Shown here in pieces: positions 1 through 35,129 of a DNA stretch of 35,129 nt. Within the stretch, counting starts at the first letter, position 1; each line of letters begins with the position of its first letter. The notes below the pieces were generated by a model. That model was not told where the DNA came from and ran no database searches. It worked only from the letters and a program-made list of their open reading frames with translations. The stretch comes from Microcaldota archaeon (GTDB taxonomy: Archaea; Micrarchaeota; Micrarchaeia; Micrarchaeales; CABMGC01), in the NCBI GenBank assembly GCA_027366155.1, contig DAHXKV010000002.1, forward strand, positions 1 to 35,129. The letters run 5' to 3'. The position numbers and the translations under genes were made by a program.

Positions 1-1
1 A

Positions 2-2443
2 TTCAACAACTACTGGAACTTCGCAGGAACAAGCCTTCCTACGGGCTGGACCTCGGCAACAACGCCAGGCTCAGGAAACACGGTAACAGTCAGCAACGGC
101 CTGCAGTTATATGTCTCCGGAGGTCCATCAAGCGGCGGAAGTCAGCAACCGGCATACGCCTATACTATGTACACAACTCCAATATCCAACTCAAACACCA
201 TGGTGGAAGAAGCCTCTGGATACCTGAACAACGACTATGTTCCAGGATACGACTATGTTGTCTTCTCTCCAACAGGATACTTCACCGAAACAACCGGAAT
301 CACTACAAGCAATCCCCTCTCCGTATTTGACCAGTACAAAGGACTAACCCTTCAGGAGGTGAGCGGTGGACAGAACTTCTACATGCAGGACAACAGCGGA
401 ACAGTTACTTACCTTTCTGCACCACCATGGATATCCAATCAGAACCCCCCTCTCTCAGTCTATTCAACCGTAATCGAGAACAGCTCGATAACGGGAAGCA
501 GCAGCGACTTTGCATACCTCAATTATACCGAAATCGGCAGCATATCCGCAAGCACGCCAAGCAGCAGCTATGTAGGAACCGGGCTAACCTTGGATTTCGA
601 TAACGGCCCCGCGCAGGAAAACCTTTACTGGATACGCACCAGGGACCTTCCCCCTAACGGCGTGATGCCTGTTGTTATCATAGGCTCCCAGTCTCAAGCC
701 TCAGACGTATTCGACCTAAGCGGACATAATTACACCGGTACTGGAACCTACGTTTCTCTAACTGCAAATCCAAACTCATCAATTTATTTTGGAGGTATTT
801 CAAAGCCGAGCAACAGCGGGAACCAGATCACCTTGAAGCTTCCTACCGGAATATCTTATTTTGTCCCAGTAAACATAATAAACTCCCAATCAATAAGCTC
901 GTCGAATAACTTCCAGCAGATGGTTACTGTCGACAGCGCAGCATACTCGTCGTACGAAGCTTCAAACCTCCAGAACATTGAGTTCTTCTACGCAAACGGC
1001 ATCATAATAAACTCATGGCTCGAGAGCGGCAACTCTAACGCCGCAACCAATACAATATACTGGCTGAAGATAGGCCCGCAGATACCTGCCTCGAACCGCC
1101 TCACAGTATACATGGGCTTCGCCTCTCAGTCAACAAACCTCTTCAACACTGCAACCACCGGCGAAGCACCGGAGCTGACCTGTTCCAACCCCTATGTTAC
1201 GGCAAAATGCTCCAACTATGCAGAGTACGACAACGGAGCAAACGTTTTCAATTTCTACACCAACTTCGCCGGTTCAAGCCTCCCATCCAACTGGAAAGAC
1301 ATCAATGGTGTGCAATACGTTGTAGCCAACGGCATCCAGATTACTGGCTATCCGAATGGCAATTCATACATAAACGCAACAATACCTGCATTCCAGCAGG
1401 GCAATGTAATCGATGCTTTAACTATCTTCTCGCCTTCTTATGATGAAAACTTTGAATTCGGAGGCATAGGCAACGGGGGCATTCAAGGCGGCAACGTGCT
1501 CGGGCTTTACGGGTTTGGCGCAACCGGCGAAGGCTACGAGCCGTTGTTCGCTTCTAGCTCCGCATCTGTTGGAACTAACTATCCATATCCCCCAACTGCA
1601 AATGCCCCACAGGTCTTTTCGGTCGTCTACAATGCAAGCATTGTCAATGACGGCATATACGACACAGTCTCTCTATGGAACTATACGAATCCGTATCCGT
1701 ACCCGGGCCAATATGGAGCCTCATATCTCTATCCTTCCGGAAATCCGATGTTTCCTGCTGTGGCTGGAACCTACTACGGGGCGCAAAATCCAACAGACCA
1801 GAATACTACATGGATAAGGGTGAGGACAAACCCTCCAAAAGGAGTCATGCCCTCTGTCACATTCGGGCCGGTGAGTTCCTACAAGACACTGTCCCTATAT
1901 TCCCTTTCGGGATCTGTCATTTCGCTACCGTCAAACAGCTTTTCCTCCAACTCCATATTCATAGAGCCGCAGAACACTGGCATGACTGCCTCATTGAACT
2001 TCATGATGTCCGAACAGCAGTCCTCCGAGGCTTCAGCAAATGCAGTCATCCTCTCGACAAACAGCAATGCCCTCTGCGGCTACGCGCTCACCATCGCATC
2101 CTCCAATTCGATTGACATGTCGGACAACTGCGGCGATTCCTACATTGGGACATACTCGTTCAAGCCGGATACATGGTACAACCTTGCGGTAACTATCTCT
2201 CCGGGCAGCAATGAACTCGAAACGTATTACGTTGACGGAACCGAGGTCAGCCAGGGGGCAAGCCCCTCATGGAACTCGGGAAACCTCTGGACAACCCTCT
2301 TCATCGGCGGGAACTTTGTCGGAGACATATACGGCATGCAGCTTTACAACTCAAGCCTCTCTCCGCAGCAGGTCTACCAACTGTATTCAGACACTCCGCA
2401 GTCGTACACTATTCAGACTGCCCAGCTCTCAAATGCGCCTTGA
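2..2443 (+). CDS. Large modular surface protein, 5' end outside window (DUF2341 module + LamG-like C-terminus)
   Basis: The listed ORF starts at 167, but the same frame is open to base 2 and encodes the motif NYWNFAGTSLPTGW, which also occurs inside the surface gene at 33.6 kb. The window therefore cuts into this gene. Visible order: a variable beta-rich domain ending in PPNGVMPVV, a short linker domain, a DUF2341 domain (about bases 850-1170), a second variable domain ending in PPKGVMPSVTFG (near 1860), and a concanavalin A/LamG-like domain (about 1880-2430, with WYNLAVTISPG and a YVDG turn). It is rich in Ser, Asn, Tyr and Thr with many N-glycosylation sequons and few Cys, as expected for an exported archaeal envelope protein. 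DUF2341 and LamG domains are often found in carbohydrate-binding or adhesive proteins; that role is inferred here. The signal peptide and any anchor lie outside the window or are absent. Confidence 0.85.
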   Translation, partial: FNNYWNFAGTSLPTGWTSATTPGSGNTVTVSNGLQLYVSGGPSSGGSQQPAYAYTMYTTPISNSNTMVEEASGYLNNDYVPGYDYVVFSPTGYFTETTGITTSNPLSVFDQYKGLTLQEVSGGQNFYMQDNSGTVTYLSAPPWISNQNPPLSVYSTVIENSSITGSSSDFAYLNYTEIGSISASTPSSSYVGTGLTLDFDNGPAQENLYWIRTRDLPPNGVMPVVIIGSQSQASDVFDLSGHNYTGTGTYVSLTANPNSSIYFGGISKPSNSGNQITLKLPTGISYFVPVNIINSQSISSSNNFQQMVTVDSAAYSSYEASNLQNIEFFYANGIIINSWLESGNSNAATNTIYWLKIGPQIPASNRLTVYMGFASQSTNLFNTATTGEAPELTCSNPYVTAKCSNYAEYDNGANVFNFYTNFAGSSLPSNWKDINGVQYVVANGIQITGYPNGNSYINATIPAFQQGNVIDALTIFSPSYDENFEFGGIGNGGIQGGNVLGLYGFGATGEGYEPLFASSSASVGTNYPYPPTANAPQVFSVVYNASIVNDGIYDTVSLWNYTNPYPYPGQYGASYLYPSGNPMFPAVAGTYYGAQNPTDQNTTWIRVRTNPPKGVMPSVTFGPVSSYKTLSLYSLSGSVISLPSNSFSSNSIFIEPQNTGMTASLNFMMSEQQSSEASANAVILSTNSNALCGYALTIASSNSIDMSDNCGDSYIGTYSFKPDTWYNLAVTISPGSNELETYYVDGTEVSQGASPSWNSGNLWTTLFIGGNFVGDIYGMQLYNSSLSPQQVYQLYSDTPQSYTIQTAQLSNAP
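908..1167 (+). repeat. DUF2341 DNA cassette, copy A
   Basis: This 260-bp segment is repeated without insertions or deletions at 31546-31805 (direct) and 34282-34541 (inverted). All three copies share identical blocks such as tcgtcgtacgaagcttcaaa and catgggcttcgcctctcagt. By eye copy A is the most divergent. It encodes the conserved half of the DUF2341 module, while the adjoining downstream coding sequence is unrelated at DNA level. Confidence 0.9.
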
Positions 2444-10069: not shown

Positions 10070-10579
10070 ATGGGGATGATGCAGACGATTGGGAGGGAAA
10101 GGGATTCGGCTGGAAGCGTAAGGCGTTCTAACCGATTCACGCCCGAATTAAGGGAATCCTTGTGCGCAGAAGCGAGAGAGATGCTGGATTCTGGGGTACC
10201 AAGGGCCAATGTAGTAAGGCGGCTTGTCGACCAGCACGACATCTCCATCTCCGCAGCATACAGGGCAACTTCTCCAGATGGCTTTTCCAAAAAGCCCATC
10301 ATTCCGAGAAGGGCCATAATACACAGGCATGCCGAACCTGGGCATGCAGAGATGCAGGTTCCTTCTCTGACTAAAGATCAGCAGCGCCTTGTTTCGGAGT
10401 TTAGGATCATGGCTCCAGGCCTGGTTATTGAAACGCTTAGGTTATGCTATGGCAGCGTTGGATCTGCAAGGGCGACTCTCGAAAGGCTTCGCCACGGGGG
10501 CGGAGCCATGAGTATGCAAGTTAAAGACTGGGCGACTGCAGCGTTAAGGGGCTCCGGCGAGCACAGCCCAAAGAGATGA
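10070..10579 (+). CDS. Putative HTH DNA-binding protein, unknown family
   Basis: A 169-aa basic protein. Residues about 24-66 (FTPELRESLCAEAREMLDSG, then VPRANVVRRLVDQHDISISA AYRAT in outline) read as a helix-turn-helix: the segment GVPRANVVRRLVDQHDIS resembles the Hin/transposase-type HTH where a recognition helix follows VS/IS-x-x-x-AYR. The rest has two predicted helices (KDQQRLVSEFRIM, VGSARATLERLRHGG) and no recognised catalytic motif. No sensor domain is visible. The palindromic AT box at 10027-10038 may double as an autoregulatory operator, which is a guess. No close family is recognised. Confidence 0.6.
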   Translation: MGMMQTIGRERDSAGSVRRSNRFTPELRESLCAEAREMLDSGVPRANVVRRLVDQHDISISAAYRATSPDGFSKKPIIPRRAIIHRHAEPGHAEMQVPSLTKDQQRLVSEFRIMAPGLVIETLRLCYGSVGSARATLERLRHGGGAMSMQVKDWATAALRGSGEHSPKR

Positions 10580-10637
10580 GTGCCAAGGCGCGCAGCCACA
10601 TCCATGCACCATGGCTTATGTCTTGTGCTGTCAACAA

Positions 10638-10647
10638 GTTTATAATG
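10638..10647 (+). promoter_or_regulatory. TATA box of HMG-CoA reductase gene
   Basis: The sequence gtttataatg is centred about 31 bases before the ATG at 10674, consistent with a nearly leaderless archaeal transcript, and supports that start over the internal ATG at MHRLEEHF. Confidence 0.5.
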
Positions 10648-10673
10648 TTTCCTGGCATTAGATTCATGATGGC

Positions 10674-11930
10674 ATGGCCCACTCACCTAAATCTGCAAGA
10701 AGCGGCAGGGAAAGGAAACCTGCGGATGAAACTCCCGGAAGCATTCCGATGCACAGGCTGGAGGAACACTTCTCTCCGGGGGAAGCGGCAGCAAAGAGAC
10801 GGTCAATGATAGAAAAGCTGACGGGTTCCAGCCTAAAATCGGTAGGCTCGTCAGGACTTGATTATTCGGGCATAGTGAACAAGAACGCCGAAAACGTGAT
10901 AGGCTTCATGCAGATGCCTCTGGGGATTGCAGGTCCGATATCCGTCAGGGGCTCATATACGAATGGCGAGTTTTACGTGCCAATGGCCACTACTGAAGGT
11001 GCGCTGATAGCGAGCATAAACCGCGGCATGAAGGCCATAACCCTTTCCGGAGGGGCATACTCTGTTGTCACAAAAGACCTGATGACAAGGGCTCCACTCT
11101 TCGAGTTCAAGAGCGCCGGAGACGCTGTCGAGTTTGTCGCATGGGCAGAAAGTAACTGGAAAGGCATAACTGCAGCCGCAGAATCAACGACAACGCACGG
11201 CAGGCTGAAGGAGATGCTGCCATTTATCATGGGCAACAACGTCTGGCTCCGCCTCGGTTTCAGCACCGGCGATGCGATGGGCATGAACATGGCGACCATG
11301 GCGAGCGAGGCTGCATGCTCCTTCATAGAAGAAAACTTCCCGAAAGGGCATATGGTAACCGTAAGCGGAAACATGTGCTCCGACAAGAAGGAATCAGGAG
11401 TCAACAGCCTCCTGGGCAGGGGCAAGACTGTCATCTCCGAGGCCCTCATAACCGAAAGCGTGCTCGGCAACGTGCTCAAATCCAACGCCCAGGGCCTCCA
11501 CAACCTCAACATGAAGAAGAACTTCCTAGGCAGCGCCAGGGCCCTGAGTGGCAAGTTCAGCGGCCATTCCGCAAATGCGATTGCGGCAATCTTCGCGGCT
11601 ACGGGCCAGGACATAGCCCAGGTTGTCGAGAGCAGCGGATGCTTCACGCTCACCGAGCCGCGCGGCAGTGACCTTTACATCTCCGTGACACTACCCTCTC
11701 TCGAGATTGGAACTGTCGGAGGTGGATCATCGCTTCCGACACAGCGCGAGGCGCTCTCAATAATGGGCGTAAGCGGCGGAGGAAACCCTGCCGGATCAAA
11801 TGCCTCCAAATTCGCAGAGATAATAAGTGCAGCCGTACTTGCCGGAGAGCTTAACCTCCTTGCAGCGCAGTTCTCCAGGGATCTGGGAAAGGCGCACGGG
11901 AGGCTCGGCAGAAATTCAGGAGCGCGCTGA
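10674..11930 (+). CDS. hmgA: HMG-CoA reductase, class I
   Basis: Reduces HMG-CoA to mevalonate with NADPH, the committed step to the isoprenoid chains of archaeal lipids. Visible signatures: [16 protein letters not shown] (residues 73-88, dimer/substrate loop), [13 protein letters not shown] (106-118, with the catalytic Glu), DAMGMNMAT (200-208, NADP binding), [14 protein letters not shown] (231-244, catalytic Lys and Asp), [12 protein letters not shown], and a C-terminal KAHGRLGR carrying the catalytic His. The 418-aa length is normal for archaea. The residues after DKK are ESGVN where the family usually has PAAIN or PSAxN, an unusual Pro-to-Glu change beside the active-site Lys. The first 30 residues are polar and probably disordered. 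A G/C hairpin follows the stop. Confidence 0.96.
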
Positions 11931-11949
11931 GTCAAAAATGTTATTTGTA

Positions 11950-11975
11950 GGGGGCAGCCATGCCGCCCCCCTTTC
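11950..11975 (+). terminator. Possible hairpin terminator after hmgA
   Basis: The stem gggggc/gccccc (11950-11955 with 11965-11970) encloses a 9-base loop and is followed by ctttct. It lies 20 bases past the hmgA stop. Archaeal termination mostly needs only T-runs, so the hairpin role is tentative. Confidence 0.4.
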
Positions 11976-12013
11976 TGGGTGTGCCAAGCCACTCTCGGCT
12001 CTAAATAATTACC

Positions 12014-12087
12014 TATACTAATATATAATCTTTTCTATCTCAGTATCTAATTGTATAGTAAAGTATAAATACTTATACTAAAGTATA
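12014..12087 (+). promoter_or_regulatory. AT-rich promoter with repeated tatacta / taaagtata elements
   Basis: The segment holds tatacta at 12014-12020 and 12074-12080 (60 bases apart) and taaagtata at 12059-12067 and 12079-12087 (exactly 20 bases apart), around a TATA-like aagtataaatactta. The even helical spacing suggests same-face protein binding. It lies just before the ORF at 12091. Confidence 0.45.
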
Positions 12088-23535: not shown

Positions 23536-24702
23536 TCAGGCCTTCCTGCTTCTCATCAGCAACCATGTCCTTTTCTCAGCCTTCTTTCCTGCGTAAGCCT
23601 CGCTCAGGAGCGCCCTGAACGTAAGATACAATATAATCGCGGCAAAGGCTACGAAGGCAAGTGAGACCTGCCCTATCCCCATTCCCGTTACCAGATAGCC
23701 GATTCCGCCTGCAATGCTTATGAAAGCGAAGAGCGGAGGTATGGCCGGCAGCGGCTTCTTGTATATCTTGAGAAGGAGCATTGTCAGCACTATCCCTAGT
23801 ACTCCCCCAAGGATTATTATCCATGCAAACGTATAATTCGTATAAGTGTAATAGGCGCTTATCGCGGCCATGAGGGGCAGGCTCAGGTCTCCTTCGCCAA
23901 GTGAGACCTGTGAGACCACAGGCAGCTTTCCCTCCTTTATTATCCTGTTGAATTCAGGTTTCTCGGCTTCGTGAGACCTTATAAGGTATTCCTCATAGCT
24001 GTCCTCCTCCTTCTTCCCAAAATAGCCTCGTGGTATGGCCTCTATGTCCGCAACGCTTATCAGAAAGGCTATGTTCATGGAGATGAGCGCCTTGTCGAAG
24101 CTTACTATTACCTTGGTCATGAAAATGCTTATGTAATCGTAAACTGCAACTATGGCAAGTATGGCCATGGCATACAGGAAAGGAAAGCTTATTCCGAGGA
24201 GTATGCCCACGCCTATGCTGGACATCATCGTTGCCAGATCCTTTGCCCGCGGATGCAGTTCCTTGAACGCCATGAGGAATATGGCAGATATTATCGAGAA
24301 TGCATAGACTAGATCTGCGCCTGGAGTCACGGGCAGCGAGATTGCATACCCGACCTTTCCCGGAAGGGAGATCACGCCACCGACGTTTCCCGGTATTATC
24401 AGGTTATAAAACACAAGGAAGACGAAAAACGAGGTGAATCCTACGACGATAAATTCGAGTATCCTGAAGAATACGGTCTTGCTATGGTGCCTCCGCAGTG
24501 CAATCATGAGGAGCGTGCCAAATATCGCCAAATCTATTATATATGCAAAATCGGTAAACTGCGGGCTGAGCAGGCTGCTGTTTATTATGGATACCTTTGA
24601 GGTTACTATTGCCCCATAAGCCATGGAAAATCCGACGCCCATGACTATGCAGAACAGGAGTATTATTTCCGCTATTCCCCTGGTGCTTACTATCTTTATC
24701 AT
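23536..24702 (-). CDS. Presenilin/signal peptide peptidase-family intramembrane aspartyl protease
   Basis: A 388-aa polytopic membrane protein with about nine helices. The two catalytic motifs are present: YDY in VAVYDYISIF (residues 188-190, Asp189) and GEGD in VSLGEGDLSLPL (269-272, Asp272), plus the PAL-type motif LPAIPPL (318-324), all in order. This is the GxGD-protease architecture of archaeal presenilin/SPP homologues, which cut type II membrane segments within the bilayer. A charged loop (FGKKEEDSYEEYLIRSHEAEKPE) separates the catalytic helices, as in presenilin. Substrates are unknown; nearby signal-anchored proteins (for example 26517-26858) are candidates only by location. A TATA-like gtttataaaac lies about 42 bases upstream on this strand. 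Confidence 0.9.
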   Translation of the reverse strand: MIKIVSTRGIAEIILLFCIVMGVGFSMAYGAIVTSKVSIINSSLLSPQFTDFAYIIDLAIFGTLLMIALRRHHSKTVFFRILEFIVVGFTSFFVFLVFYNLIIPGNVGGVISLPGKVGYAISLPVTPGADLVYAFSIISAIFLMAFKELHPRAKDLATMMSSIGVGILLGISFPFLYAMAILAIVAVYDYISIFMTKVIVSFDKALISMNIAFLISVADIEAIPRGYFGKKEEDSYEEYLIRSHEAEKPEFNRIIKEGKLPVVSQVSLGEGDLSLPLMAAISAYYTYTNYTFAWIIILGGVLGIVLTMLLLKIYKKPLPAIPPLFAFISIAGGIGYLVTGMGIGQVSLAFVAFAAIILYLTFRALLSEAYAGKKAEKRTWLLMRSRKA

Positions 24703-31395: not shown

Positions 31396-32427
31396 ATGGG
31401 AAATAGGTCCTACGTTATAGTGTTACTTGGTATGTTGCTGGCACTGATGCCTGTCCTGAACGCAGCAGGAGCGATCGCTCCCTCTGGAATACTCAAGTAC
31501 GTTCCAATCACCATATCCAATGCGCAGTCCTCAGCCACGCCTCTGAACTTCCAGCAGATGGTTACTGTTGACAGCGCAACATACTCGTCGTACGAAGCTT
31601 CAAACCTCCAGAACATTGAGTTCTTCTACGCAAACGGCATTATAATAAACTCATGGCTCGAGAGCGGCAACTCTAACGCCGCCTCAAGTACCTTATATTG
31701 GCTGAACATAGGCCCGCAGATACCTGCCTCAGGCAGCCTTACAGTATACATGGGCTTCGCCTCTCAGTCAACAAACCTCTTCAACACTGCAACCACCGGC
31801 GAGGCCCCGCAGCTCTCGCCCAGCTACGCCGAGTACGACAACGGCGCAGGCGTATTCAATTTCTACGATGACTTTGCAGGGACGACCCTAAGCTCCAAAT
31901 GGACGCCGTCTTCCCAATTATCCTATTATGTGGACAACGGAATAACGGTAAACGGGCAATCCACTACCTTCCCGTCGGGAATAACTACAAATACCCTAAC
32001 AAACCCCTACACATTCAATGCACCTGGCATAGTTGAGTTCTATGGATATGTAGGAATAGACACATATGGGGAGTCGGAAGGTTTTGCAGGGTCACCAACA
32101 GCCTCTATCTTTACATACGAATATGGTGGCGATCAGTGGTATGCCTGCAACACTTCCACCTGTGCGGGCTTCGGCTCTTTTGGAAATGGGGAAGGCTTAT
32201 ACGGGGCTGAAGTAGAAAGCAATGGCAATGTCTTTTATTACGAGAACTACAACACATACACAGCTACCGAGACCTCATACAACGCCGCGCTATCTCCATT
32301 ATGGTTAACGATCGTCGGAGGCGCCGGCAATGGTGGCAACAATGCCGGACCAGTATACTATATGCGCGAGCGTGCATACCCGCCCAACGGCGTCATGCCT
32401 TCGGTCTCATTCGGATCAATCCAATGA
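31396..32427 (+). CDS. DUF2341 surface protein (single module)
   Basis: A 343-aa exported protein with a clear signal peptide (MGNRSYVIVLLGMLLALMPVLNA). A DUF2341 domain follows (about residues 35-150: YVPITISNAQSSATPLNFQ, then LYWLNIGPQIPASGSLTVYM), then a variable domain opening with FYDDFAGTTLSSKWT and ending in YPPNGVMPSVSFG at the C-terminus. The arrangement is one module of the type found twice in the 1-2443 gene, without a visible anchor. The ORF-track GTG at 31342 fits a leaderless transcript from the TATA box, so a longer form with 18 more residues cannot be excluded; I prefer the ATG because it begins a standard signal peptide. It faces the similar gene at 33618 with pelA between them. 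Confidence 0.88.
   Translation: MGNRSYVIVLLGMLLALMPVLNAAGAIAPSGILKYVPITISNAQSSATPLNFQQMVTVDSATYSSYEASNLQNIEFFYANGIIINSWLESGNSNAASSTLYWLNIGPQIPASGSLTVYMGFASQSTNLFNTATTGEAPQLSPSYAEYDNGAGVFNFYDDFAGTTLSSKWTPSSQLSYYVDNGITVNGQSTTFPSGITTNTLTNPYTFNAPGIVEFYGYVGIDTYGESEGFAGSPTASIFTYEYGGDQWYACNTSTCAGFGSFGNGEGLYGAEVESNGNVFYYENYNTYTATETSYNAALSPLWLTIVGGAGNGGNNAGPVYYMRERAYPPNGVMPSVSFGSIQ
31546..31805 (+). repeat. DUF2341 DNA cassette, copy B
   Basis: Aligns without gaps with copy C (34282-34541, inverted); I count about 11 mismatches in 260 bases, mostly at third codon positions. The B-C identity continues about 50 bases further, into codons for PSYAEYDNGA, then stops. Confidence 0.9.
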
Positions 32428-32455
32428 ATATCAGGGACACCTTCCCTCAGGCGCG

Positions 32456-33493
32456 TCATTTGTACATTCCCGCAATCCCTCCGAAGGACTCCAGCTGCTT
32501 TCCGGCTTCATCTTCAGAATTGAATATCTCTATCGCTACTCCGTGCCTGTCCGCATCATTCAGAATTTTTTTTATTTCCTCTGTGTTGAGTTTCGAGTCG
32601 TTTACGAGAATCATCTCTATCTTGTAATCGTTCAGATGCTCGCGTATCTTCTCGACGCCGAGGAGCGCTGACCCACTGCGCATGCCCCTGAAAAGTGCAT
32701 CAAGGAGCTCGAACTCCCTTCTGACGTGCTCTGTTTCAAGCATCTTCGAGACTTCATGGCTGCGCACAGCTTCTCTTATGCCCGACCGCTCCGCATCGCC
32801 CACTGGCACATAGACAAGCCTCTTCCCTGTCTCAATCCCTTTGTATTCTACGTATTTCCTTATATCATCCTTGGTGAACCCCGGCCCTGCAATTATGACG
32901 AGTTCGACGTCCATCCTCTTCACTGAATCTATGATGTCTTTGAAATACTTCTCGCGCTGCGCTTCGAAATCCTTCTCCTTCATCCTTTTGCTCAGGTGTG
33001 AAAACAGCTCTCCGGAGAGGTCTATTCCATATCCCCGTATGTATGCCAAGGTTGCCTTTTCGTCATCCACTGCGATGACTCCCAGCCTCGGCCGTTTGGA
33101 ATCAAGAACTGCCTGTCTTATCCTCCTTATTATGAAATCTCCCCAGCCCTCTGGCTTCTCTATCTCAATCTCGTCCAAAGGCCCGACAGTGAGGGTGTGG
33201 TAGCTGTTTACCTGTATATATTCCTCAGGATGGCCCGAGACTATCTTCCCTATTATGCGTAGCCTTCCTGCCCCTCTGTCAAGTTCAGTTTTTTCAACAA
33301 CCAGCCTTACGAACACCTCCTTCTGCTCGCCTTTGTCTGTCTCGCTGGCCTTGAACCTGCGGTAGCTCTTGGAGGAGACATAATTGTCTTTAGATACCAC
33401 CATTGCAAGAAGGTAAAGATCCTCGAATGACTCAGGGACTAGCTTTACTGTGTTTGTTGAATCATAAAACTTTACTGACTTCATGGCACTCAC
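32456..33493 (-). CDS. pelA: Pelota (Dom34) ribosome-rescue factor
   Basis: Archaeal Pelota, an aRF1 paralogue that, with aEF1A or aABCE1, binds stalled ribosomes and frees them. It has an N-terminal Sm-like domain (residues about 1-130: SYRRFKASETDKGEQKEVFV, LRIIGKIVSGHPEEYIQV and NSYHTLTVGPLDEIEIEK), a central domain (about 135-265, ELVIIAGPGFTKDD) and a C-terminal eRF1_3-type domain (about 270-345, GSALLGVEKIREHLNDYKIE). It lacks the GGQ loop as expected. The length of 345 aa is normal. M1 is a GTG and the ATG at 33484 is an alternative; the TATA-like atatttaag (33519-33527) lies 26-34 bases before the GTG. It sits between two inverted surface-gene cassettes. Confidence 0.95.
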   Translation of the reverse strand: MSAMKSVKFYDSTNTVKLVPESFEDLYLLAMVVSKDNYVSSKSYRRFKASETDKGEQKEVFVRLVVEKTELDRGAGRLRIIGKIVSGHPEEYIQVNSYHTLTVGPLDEIEIEKPEGWGDFIIRRIRQAVLDSKRPRLGVIAVDDEKATLAYIRGYGIDLSGELFSHLSKRMKEKDFEAQREKYFKDIIDSVKRMDVELVIIAGPGFTKDDIRKYVEYKGIETGKRLVYVPVGDAERSGIREAVRSHEVSKMLETEHVRREFELLDALFRGMRSGSALLGVEKIREHLNDYKIEMILVNDSKLNTEEIKKILNDADRHGVAIEIFNSEDEAGKQLESFGGIAGMYK

Positions 33494-33617
33494 GCGCTGA
33501 AACTGATGCGTTATGGGGATATTTAAGGGATTGCCATTTAGCCTTTTTATCTGGCGTTCGGTGGCTTGAACGGCCAGATGGCGCGGCTATCCTCCGTGAA
33601 AGTATTATACTATAAAC

Positions 33618-35129
33618 TTATCCTATGGCTCCAAACGTGACAGAGGGCATTACGCCATTGGGAGGGTAGGCACGGGTGCGGAGCCATTGAAGATTTGCCG
33701 GATACGGATATGTATATGCCTCAGCATAAGCCCCTGATTCAAATATTGCAGGGTAAAGCGGAAGCGATACGGAAGGCGAGGTGAGAGTGCTCCCCAGCTT
33801 TGCATAGTTTGAATAGTAAGCAGAGCTTGAGGCAGAGATGAATGCCACCGACCATATCTGGTTTGCATTTTGGGCTTGGGTGTCGCCGGTGATGCTGTAT
33901 GCAGTACTCTCTGTCTGCGTGCCTTGGAAGTACCCTCCTGGATAAAAACCAGAGCTACTAAACCCTGTGGACAGTGTCATGCCCTGGTAACCGGCTTGAT
34001 TAACTACCGGAACGGTCATCACTCCTATCCCTGTCCAATATATTGATGACGTTTCGTAGAGATTGCCGTAGCCTTCAATCACATTTCCAGGCTGCAAGGC
34101 TGTGCCATACGAGATGTACCCACTGGCTGCCGTTTTTGTAGCGGTAATTCCGTTGTTCACTGTATATGTTATGCCTGTGTTTGTCCATCCGCTCGGCAGG
34201 CTTGCCCCTGCAAAGTTCCAGTAGTTGCTGAATACGTCTGCGCCGTTGTCGTATTCGGCGTAGCTGGGAGAGAGCTGCGGGGCTTCGCCGGTGGTTGCAG
34301 TGTTGAAGAGGTTTGTTGACTGAGAGGCGAAGCCCATGTATACTGTGAGGCTGCTTGAGGCAGGAATCTGCGGGCCTATGTTCAGCCAGTATAAGGTACT
34401 CGAGGCGGCGTTAGAGTTGCCGCTCTCGAGCCATGAGTTTATTATGATGCCATTTGCGTAGAAGAACTCAATGTTCTGGAGGTTTGAAGCTTCGTACGAC
34501 GAGTATGTTGCACTGTCAACAGTGACCATCTGCTGGAAGTCTGAAGGCGTGTTTGAGGACTGGGAGTTCGTGATTGTTATCGGAACGTATGCGGCGATTC
34601 CGGATGGTGTGTTGATGCTGACCTGAATTATGCTGTTTGAGGTGGTTGTAATCAGCGCTGGCGTTTCCGAGTCTATGACGTTTGCATAGAAAGTGTAATT
34701 GCCAAGGGCAGTCTGTTGGTTAGTGTTTAGGAGATAGTTTGAGGAGGAGGCGCCGGATATCTGGGAGAAGGAGTTAGCGCCGGGCGCCTCCTCGTACCAC
34801 TGGTAGGTGTAGGGCGGCAGACCGCCGGTGCTTCCGAGGTAGATTTCCTGCGTCTGGCCCGATTTTATGGAGGAGAATACGGGAAAGATGTTCGAATTGA
34901 GTGGGACGGGCTTGAATGTAACGGTTTCTGAGGAAGTGCATGAGCCGAAAACCGCAATTATGTTTGCGGATCCCGGAGTATTTGAAGAAGCCGAAGAGAG
35001 GGAATTGCCTGCATAGTTTGAATTGGAGTAGAGGCTCTGGAATTCCACATGTGGATCGTTTGAGGAGAACGCGACAGTGGCGCCCGCGATACTCGTCCCG
35101 AGGATGGATACCTGCGCGGCCAGCGGGTC
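33618..35129 (-). CDS. Large DUF2341 surface protein, 5' end outside window
   Basis: The listed ORF begins with a GTG at 35048, but the frame stays open to the window edge, encoding AQVSILGTSIAGATVAFSSN, so the gene is longer upstream. Order from the N-terminal side: an Ig-like start, an Ig/PKD-like domain with GGLPPYTYQWY, a DUF2341 domain (about 34600-34230), then a variable domain starting NYWNFAGASLPSGWT and ending YPPNGVMPSVTFG. Many sequons and Ser/Asn/Tyr/Thr richness fit an exported envelope protein. No C-terminal anchor is visible: the protein ends directly after the PPNGVMPSVTFG motif. It converges on nothing; pelA reads in the same direction 124 bases downstream. Confidence 0.87.
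   Translation of the reverse strand, partial: DPLAAQVSILGTSIAGATVAFSSNDPHVEFQSLYSNSNYAGNSLSSASSNTPGSANIIAVFGSCTSSETVTFKPVPLNSNIFPVFSSIKSGQTQEIYLGSTGGLPPYTYQWYEEAPGANSFSQISGASSSNYLLNTNQQTALGNYTFYANVIDSETPALITTTSNSIIQVSINTPSGIAAYVPITITNSQSSNTPSDFQQMVTVDSATYSSYEASNLQNIEFFYANGIIINSWLESGNSNAASSTLYWLNIGPQIPASSSLTVYMGFASQSTNLFNTATTGEAPQLSPSYAEYDNGADVFSNYWNFAGASLPSGWTNTGITYTVNNGITATKTAASGYISYGTALQPGNVIEGYGNLYETSSIYWTGIGVMTVPVVNQAGYQGMTLSTGFSSSGFYPGGYFQGTQTESTAYSITGDTQAQNANQIWSVAFISASSSAYYSNYAKLGSTLTSPSVSLPLYPAIFESGAYAEAYTYPYPANLQWLRTRAYPPNGVMPSVTFGAIG
34282..34541 (-). repeat. DUF2341 DNA cassette, copy C
   Basis: The inverted partner of copy B, 2.5 kb away. Same length with no gaps. Recombination between B and C would invert the pelA region and exchange the 3' halves of the two surface genes. 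Confidence 0.9.

Follow-up and report, generated by a model that had tools for sequence, protein, structure and literature searches.

Two convergent surface-protein genes of an archaeon share a stretch of almost identical DNA in opposite orientation, with the pelA gene between them, and the question raised by this locus is whether the arrangement marks an invertible switch or the trace of another form of recombination. The genes lie on contig DAHXKV010000002.1 of the Microcaldota archaeon assembly GCA_027366155.1, all 35,129 nucleotides (nt) of which form the window analyzed here, and each encodes a DUF2341 core followed by a variable C-terminal half (C-half) and a short conserved tail. The original prediction had taken the two cores for the arms of a surface-gene switch. 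From the sequence comparisons below, their near-identity is more probably due to gene conversion between the cores combined with occasional replacement of the C-half (probability about 0.72). The source draft genome (G000) measures 778 kb in 61 contigs and is 78% complete, and the window is its entire contig C52.

Inverted DUF2341 cores in genes B and C

31396..32427, + strand: gene B, 343-amino-acid (aa) secreted one-module DUF2341 protein (open reading frame (ORF), PF10102, translation)
31548..31858, + strand: homogenized DUF2341 core of B (alignment to the C core)
31859..32427, + strand: variable C-half of B, with the conserved tail RxRAYPPNGVMP
32456..33493, - strand: pelA (archaeal Pelota), between cassettes B and C (profile search)
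33618..35129, - strand: gene C, in-window part (ORF, profile search, contig join)
33618..34228, - strand: variable C-half of C, with the conserved tail
34229..34539, - strand: homogenized DUF2341 core of C, inverted relative to B (alignment to the B core)

The reading frame of gene B is open from 31342, with an ATG at 31396 and a Sec-type leader as read from the sequence, and its score for PF10102 (DUF2341) in a Pfam profile search (31.8 bits, cut-off 23.4) places it in the family, in keeping with its earlier description as a one-module secreted protein. Gene C is complete after a join to contig C4 (33618-35759, - strand; 713 aa) and has one DUF2341 module and, again as read from the sequence, a pilin-type (class III) N-terminal leader; the Ig-like character attributed to it is weak (Big_1, 19.5 bits against a cut-off of 34.9). 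Gene C and a third family gene at the left end of the window, gene A, score below the PF10102 cut-off of 23.4 on their own (14.7 and 23.3, respectively), despite cores that are 82-96% identical in DNA to that of B or to one another. The identification of pelA as the archaeal Pelota gene is borne out by matches to eRF1_1, eRF1_2, and eRF1_3, each above cut-off.

The inverted arms (31480-31889 and 34198-34607) span 410 nt, are 89% complementary without gaps, and stand 2308 nt apart. Within them, the 260-bp stretch at 31546-31805 (+), described earlier as gap-free and about 96% identical to its inverted copy, was measured at 11 mismatches (95.8%), and the whole core (31548-31858 against 34539-34229) differs at 13 of 311 bp, the longest exact tracts being 62, 59, and 44 bp. 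The edges of the core are sharp near 31548 and 31858, identity dropping to the unrelated level just beyond them. Upstream of the core, the similarity of B and C is weak (68% nt), the variable parts of their C-halves are 29% identical in aa and 40% in nt, and the conserved tails are 84% identical in aa but 74% in nt. The C-halves are unrelated to one another within G000.

The core stands apart at silent sites as well. In the codon alignment of B and C, 45 of 49 four-fold silent sites are identical in the core, against a pooled 18 of 44 outside it (6/10 before the core, 6/23 in the C-half, and 6/11 in the tail; Fisher p = 1.2e-7). Duplication of a whole gene would lead to uniform silent divergence along its length, so the step at the core edges requires either recombination or a copy of the core only. 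Six DUF2341 modules were found in G000 (A1 and A2 of gene A, B, C, and two diverged modules on contig C17), and among the four close copies B and C resemble each other most, followed by A1 and A2 (82-90% nt in the core). Four-fold identity in the core has a mean of 0.29 between genomes and 0.35 within genomes overall, compared with 0.92 for B and C. Copies within a genome are closer to one another than orthologues are, silent sites included, which is the pattern by which gene conversion is recognized.

Cores and C-halves in related genomes

The family survey took in 105 modules from 20 related genomes, 100 of which entered the C-half comparison; the assemblies are drafts, with one genome per species and with DUF2341-family genes enriched at contig ends. 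Cores are homogenized by genome, and core and C-half are discordant in their relationships. The best nucleotide match of the core lies within its own genome for 68 of 105 modules (label shuffles: mean 7, maximum 15), whereas that of the C-half lies within its own genome for 20 of 100 modules and in other genomes for 80. At the protein level, 34 modules combine a core closest to its own genome with a foreign C-half, and two show the reverse (McNemar p = 2e-8). Among 26 within-genome pairs with a core identity of at least 0.79, the next 100 codons are only 0.36-0.51 identical in 24 (background 0.39 ± 0.04); in eight of those 24 pairs, from genomes G017, G026, and G032, the 100 codons upstream are also 0.87-0.97 alike, so that the two genes differ only from the 3' border of the core onward. 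In several cases, C-halves that are 54-85% alike between genomes are carried by different N-termini; for example, G025 and G001 have C-halves 76% identical on unrelated N-termini, with cores only 45% alike.

One replacement of a C-half can be seen at an orthologous locus. The same gene occupies the same place in two sister species (contig C4 of G002 and contig C3 of G004), with flanks 87% and 78% identical in nt and a core 82% identical in protein. From the end of the core (L162 3867) to the conserved tail (from about 4396), identity falls to 44-54% and then recovers, and the C-half of G002 is 57-62% identical in aa to C-halves of other genes, including window module A2, compared with about 40% to its orthologue. 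The flanks are unmoved on both sides; the event is a two-sided replacement of the kind that gene conversion or a double crossover would leave, and not an inversion.

Probable gene conversion and alternative explanations

Genes B and C would then be members of a within-genome family of surface adhesin modules, probably pilus-associated, built from a conserved DUF2341 core, an exchangeable C-half, and a short conserved tail. Core sequence would be copied among the paralogues by ordinary homologous recombination, for the most part gene conversion (concerted evolution), and the lack of homology in the flanks would make conversion tracts end at the edges of the core. Over longer times, whole C-halves would be exchanged for others between core and tail, and different N-terminal anchors would thus come to bear different outer halves. 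Of the original prediction, the part that treated the cassettes as an apparently homology-driven recombination platform beside an exchangeable C-half is upheld by the silent-site homogenization, by the core/C-half discordance over 100 modules, and by the replacement in G002/G004; the part that proposed an actual inversion is not supported, in view of the ancestral orientation of pelA, the unbroken contig, the 4% divergence of the arms, and the two-sided nature of the exchange in G002/G004. Several points weigh against gene conversion with C-half replacement. The RadA recombinase was not found in the 78%-complete genome itself, the greater divergence of the C-half makes its comparison noisier than that of the core, and a recent core-only duplication could mimic the pattern for any single pair. 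Moreover, no recent copies of a C-half within a genome were seen except in G027 and on contig C36 of G037, so that C-half exchange is not caught in action.

Across genera, no part of the protein is better conserved than the core, as would be expected if strong purifying selection at the DNA or RNA level kept the copies alike without recombination, yet the between-species comparison at four-fold sites rejects constraint on silent sites (0.29 between and 0.35 within genomes against 0.92 for B/C), and selection as the cause is very improbable. An artefact of assembly, by which a copy of one cassette was mis-joined to give the other, is scarcely credible: the draft does derive from short reads and does break inside the DUF2341 gene family, but the two cores differ at 13 sites, their longest exact tract of 62 bp is far below the 141-bp overlaps between contigs, and both genes are open throughout. 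A one-off origin, in which gene C came to lie beside pelA by recent duplication or insertion with the core of B (or the reverse) and no conversion continued, would fit the addition of gene C between pelA and its usual neighbor, at a place where relatives lack it, and the weak similarity of B and C upstream of the core. The silent sites of flanks and tail have diverged so far that such a duplication must have been restricted to the core, and identity limited to the core or to the N-terminus plus core recurs in G017, G026, G032, and G037; a one-off origin is therefore unlikely.

A live phase switch, in which RadA-driven recombination between the inverted cores flips about 2.4-2.7 kb including pelA and swaps the C-halves of a secreted and a pilin-anchored protein, is geometrically sound and still quite unlikely, both as an inversion and in this particular form. 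The arms are inverted, in frame, and 2.3 kb apart, they come from the two of the four close copies with the greatest similarity, and inversion in silico yields two intact in-frame genes of 357 and 682 aa, so that the predicted swap of C-termini is possible on paper. A TATA-like box, a candidate promoter element of pelA, lies at 33608-33616 within the segment, in line with the earlier proposal that pelA would keep its promoter on flipping. Inverted arms in frequent exchange tend toward identity, and these show 4% divergence and no exact tract longer than 62 bp. A single isomer is seen in the assembly, in which the contig is unbroken at both arms although other branch points broke it; with an assembler k near 141, a common recombinant would be expected to cause a break at an arm. 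The left break of the contig, which begins at the core/C-half border of A1, was not used as evidence for isomers, because the preceding base is the same in all copies and a core recombinant would not branch there. The exchange resolved between the sister species left both flanks in place, and no intact tyrosine recombinase was found. A precedent for such a switch does exist in the pneumococcal hsdS inversions (PMC4948785).

The order of genes around pelA bears on the same point. In six relatives (G001, G002, G003, G004, G005, and G015), pelA has the same orientation as in the window relative to its conserved 5' neighbors (J_35837, not found in G003, and the block J_36464-J_38312), which indicates that the present order is ancestral. 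Gene C represents an addition at a position, between pelA and J_35837, where relatives lack it, and on the 3' side of pelA a convergent gene for a surface or pilin-like protein is frequent (G001, G003, G015, and G017). Orientation, the conservation of which had been named earlier as evidence that would speak against a switch, is thus conserved in these six, though all six relatives are without the B/C pair, and for that reason an ancestral order is compatible with reversible switching; the pair was not found in any relative, the genus comprising six genomes only. If true, a live B/C inversion would be a case of phase variation acting on contact proteins in DPANN archaea.

Recombination machinery

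The likeliest agent of exchange is homologous recombination, given that RadA is widespread (strong profile matches in 36 of 40 genomes), tyrosine recombinases are scattered among the relatives, and reverse transcriptase is lacking in G000. No integrase match was obtained in G036 or G037, both of which have homogenized cores. No intact tyrosine recombinase was found in G000 at 78% completeness, serine recombinases not being searched. A tyrosine-recombinase inverton was rejected, as its sole candidate in the incomplete genome is a truncated integrase-like ORF of 196 aa outside the locus (L041 1165-1755, contig C11), which falls below the Pfam cut-off and has no tRNA found adjoining it; the earlier remark that no recombinase gene is seen in the window agrees with this. 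Similarly, a diversity-generating retroelement was rejected because RVT_1 is absent from G000 and from 37 of the 40 genomes in all. As for silent cassettes of the pilS or vls type, the examined regions of G000 contained no near-identical spare C-half, other contigs not being searched for such fragments, and the DUF2341 modules lie in long open frames, unlike the promoterless donor cassettes of those systems.

Relation to known systems and possible function

Shufflons of the R64 type (PilV adhesin) join a constant N-terminal part to an exchangeable C-terminal part by means of a dedicated recombinase and short sites, and their spare segments have no start of their own. The genes described here have the same combination of a constant part and an exchangeable C-terminal part, which in the shufflon belongs to an adhesin, but B and C are both complete genes. 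In the pneumococcal hsdS locus, C-terminal parts are swapped via inverted repeats of 15, 85, and 298 bp, and at the two longer ones inversion did not depend on PsrA or RecA (PMC4948785). In both loci, inverted repeats lie within genes, next to C-terminal coding parts that can be exchanged; the hsdS locus has observed isomers and a recombinase gene of its own, whereas here neither was found and a housekeeping gene sits inside the segment. Gene conversion homogenizes multigene families such as rRNA, tuf, and nifH genes (PMC8223754), in which, as here, paralogous tracts of a few hundred bp are alike within a genome while their flanks diverge. Unlike in those families, the homogenized part is one domain of mosaic surface proteins, with an adjoining half that is diverse and exchanged. 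No description of this core/C-half behavior was found in the literature searched, most subscription journals being outside its reach.

DUF2341 proteins have been proposed as PilY-like tip adhesins of type IV pili in methanogens (PMC4858521). The proteins of those loci share the Pfam domain with the present family, and genes A and C have pilin-type N-termini; no pilus locus was recognized in this window, and recombination is not described in the part of that source consulted (PMC4858521). Micrarchaeota are very small archaea that, in some cases at least, require contact with other archaea, and the micrarchaeon Mia14 is host-dependent and has many secreted contact proteins (PMC5498576). The large, lineage-specific secreted proteins of Mia14, including LamG proteins, are tied to host contact in the same kind of organism, and the sections consulted make no mention of homogenized cassettes such as those found here (PMC5498576). 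The pilus-tip proposal together with the host dependence and secreted contact proteins of Mia14 makes an adhesin role likely for the B/C family, and the C-half may bind a ligand or a host cell. In the AlphaFold model of protein B, a beta-rich core (mature residues about 1-108) is fairly confident (pLDDT mostly 66-90), and the C-half has no confident structure (pLDDT mostly below 50); a fold search of the PDB returned nothing significant for this protein, and no PDB sequence match was found. Cores homogenized per genome, with outer halves reassorted across species and anchors, would provide a concrete route to diversify contact proteins that requires no dedicated recombinase or retroelement.

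Further family members and neighboring features

1..2443, + strand: gene A, 3' part (end of module A1, whole module A2, and LamG-like C-terminus)
908..1247, + strand: DUF2341 core of module A2, third copy in the window (alignment)
1..141, no strand: assembly join, exact 141-bp overlap with contig C61 (contig comparison)
34989..35129, no strand: assembly join, exact 141-bp overlap with contig C4 (contig comparison)

The two end overlaps give the contig order C61 (reverse complement)-C52-C4. After joining, gene A encodes 1411 aa from a start at -1792 on contig C61, with a pilin-type (class III) leader as read from the sequence, two DUF2341 modules, and a LamG-like end; its A2 core is 93% identical to that of B over 269 bp and has a 30-nt insertion close to the core end. 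DUF2341 cores are over-represented near contig ends in many relatives, at least 14 of about 150 listed matches beginning within 500 bp of a contig start against a rough expectation of about 3. Family members are therefore probably missing from the draft genomes and copy numbers underestimated, and a recombining surface-gene family would explain the frequent assembly breaks of this lineage within these genes. In a scan of named genomes, related cores were found in metagenome-assembled genomes mostly labeled Micrarchaeota or Parvarchaeota, at protein identities of up to 79%, which points to a micrarchaeal host; none of these genomes entered the comparison of loci. A scan of viral sequences gave a single match, 22 codons at the core end (L183 10001-10066, IMGVR_UViG_3300027896_000033), on a contig that may be host DNA.

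Other gene pairs of the family were noted in the relatives. An inverted pair of 159 bp, 98.7% identical, lies in convergent DUF2341 genes about 6.5 kb apart on contig C26 of G015 (L109 1-159 and 6656-6814), one of them at the contig end, and is perhaps a better inversion candidate than the B/C pair. Inverted genes occur at both ends of one 186-kb contig (L118/L119, G017:C13 1327-2202 and 185547-186422), 95.5% alike over N-terminus plus core and with unrelated C-halves. Two genes in direct orientation 9 kb apart (L104, G037:C36 2206-4292 and 11193-13269) have identical cores, with C-halves that diverge directly after them (77%), and are perhaps a recent duplication. In G000 itself, a 1649-aa protein on contig C17 (L076, about 10077-12044) contains the two diverged DUF2341 modules; its C-halves match multi-module proteins of G025 and G034, and it is apparently an older, stable member of the family. 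An IS200/IS605-type insertion sequence lies 5' of gene A on contig C61 (L074, about window -5434 to -3613), consisting of a TnpB-like ORF (HTH_OrfB_IS605) and an adjoining 132-aa ORF resembling TnpA. Elsewhere in the window, 23536-24702 (- strand) encodes a presenilin/signal-peptide-peptidase-like membrane protease (PF06550, 36.4 bits).

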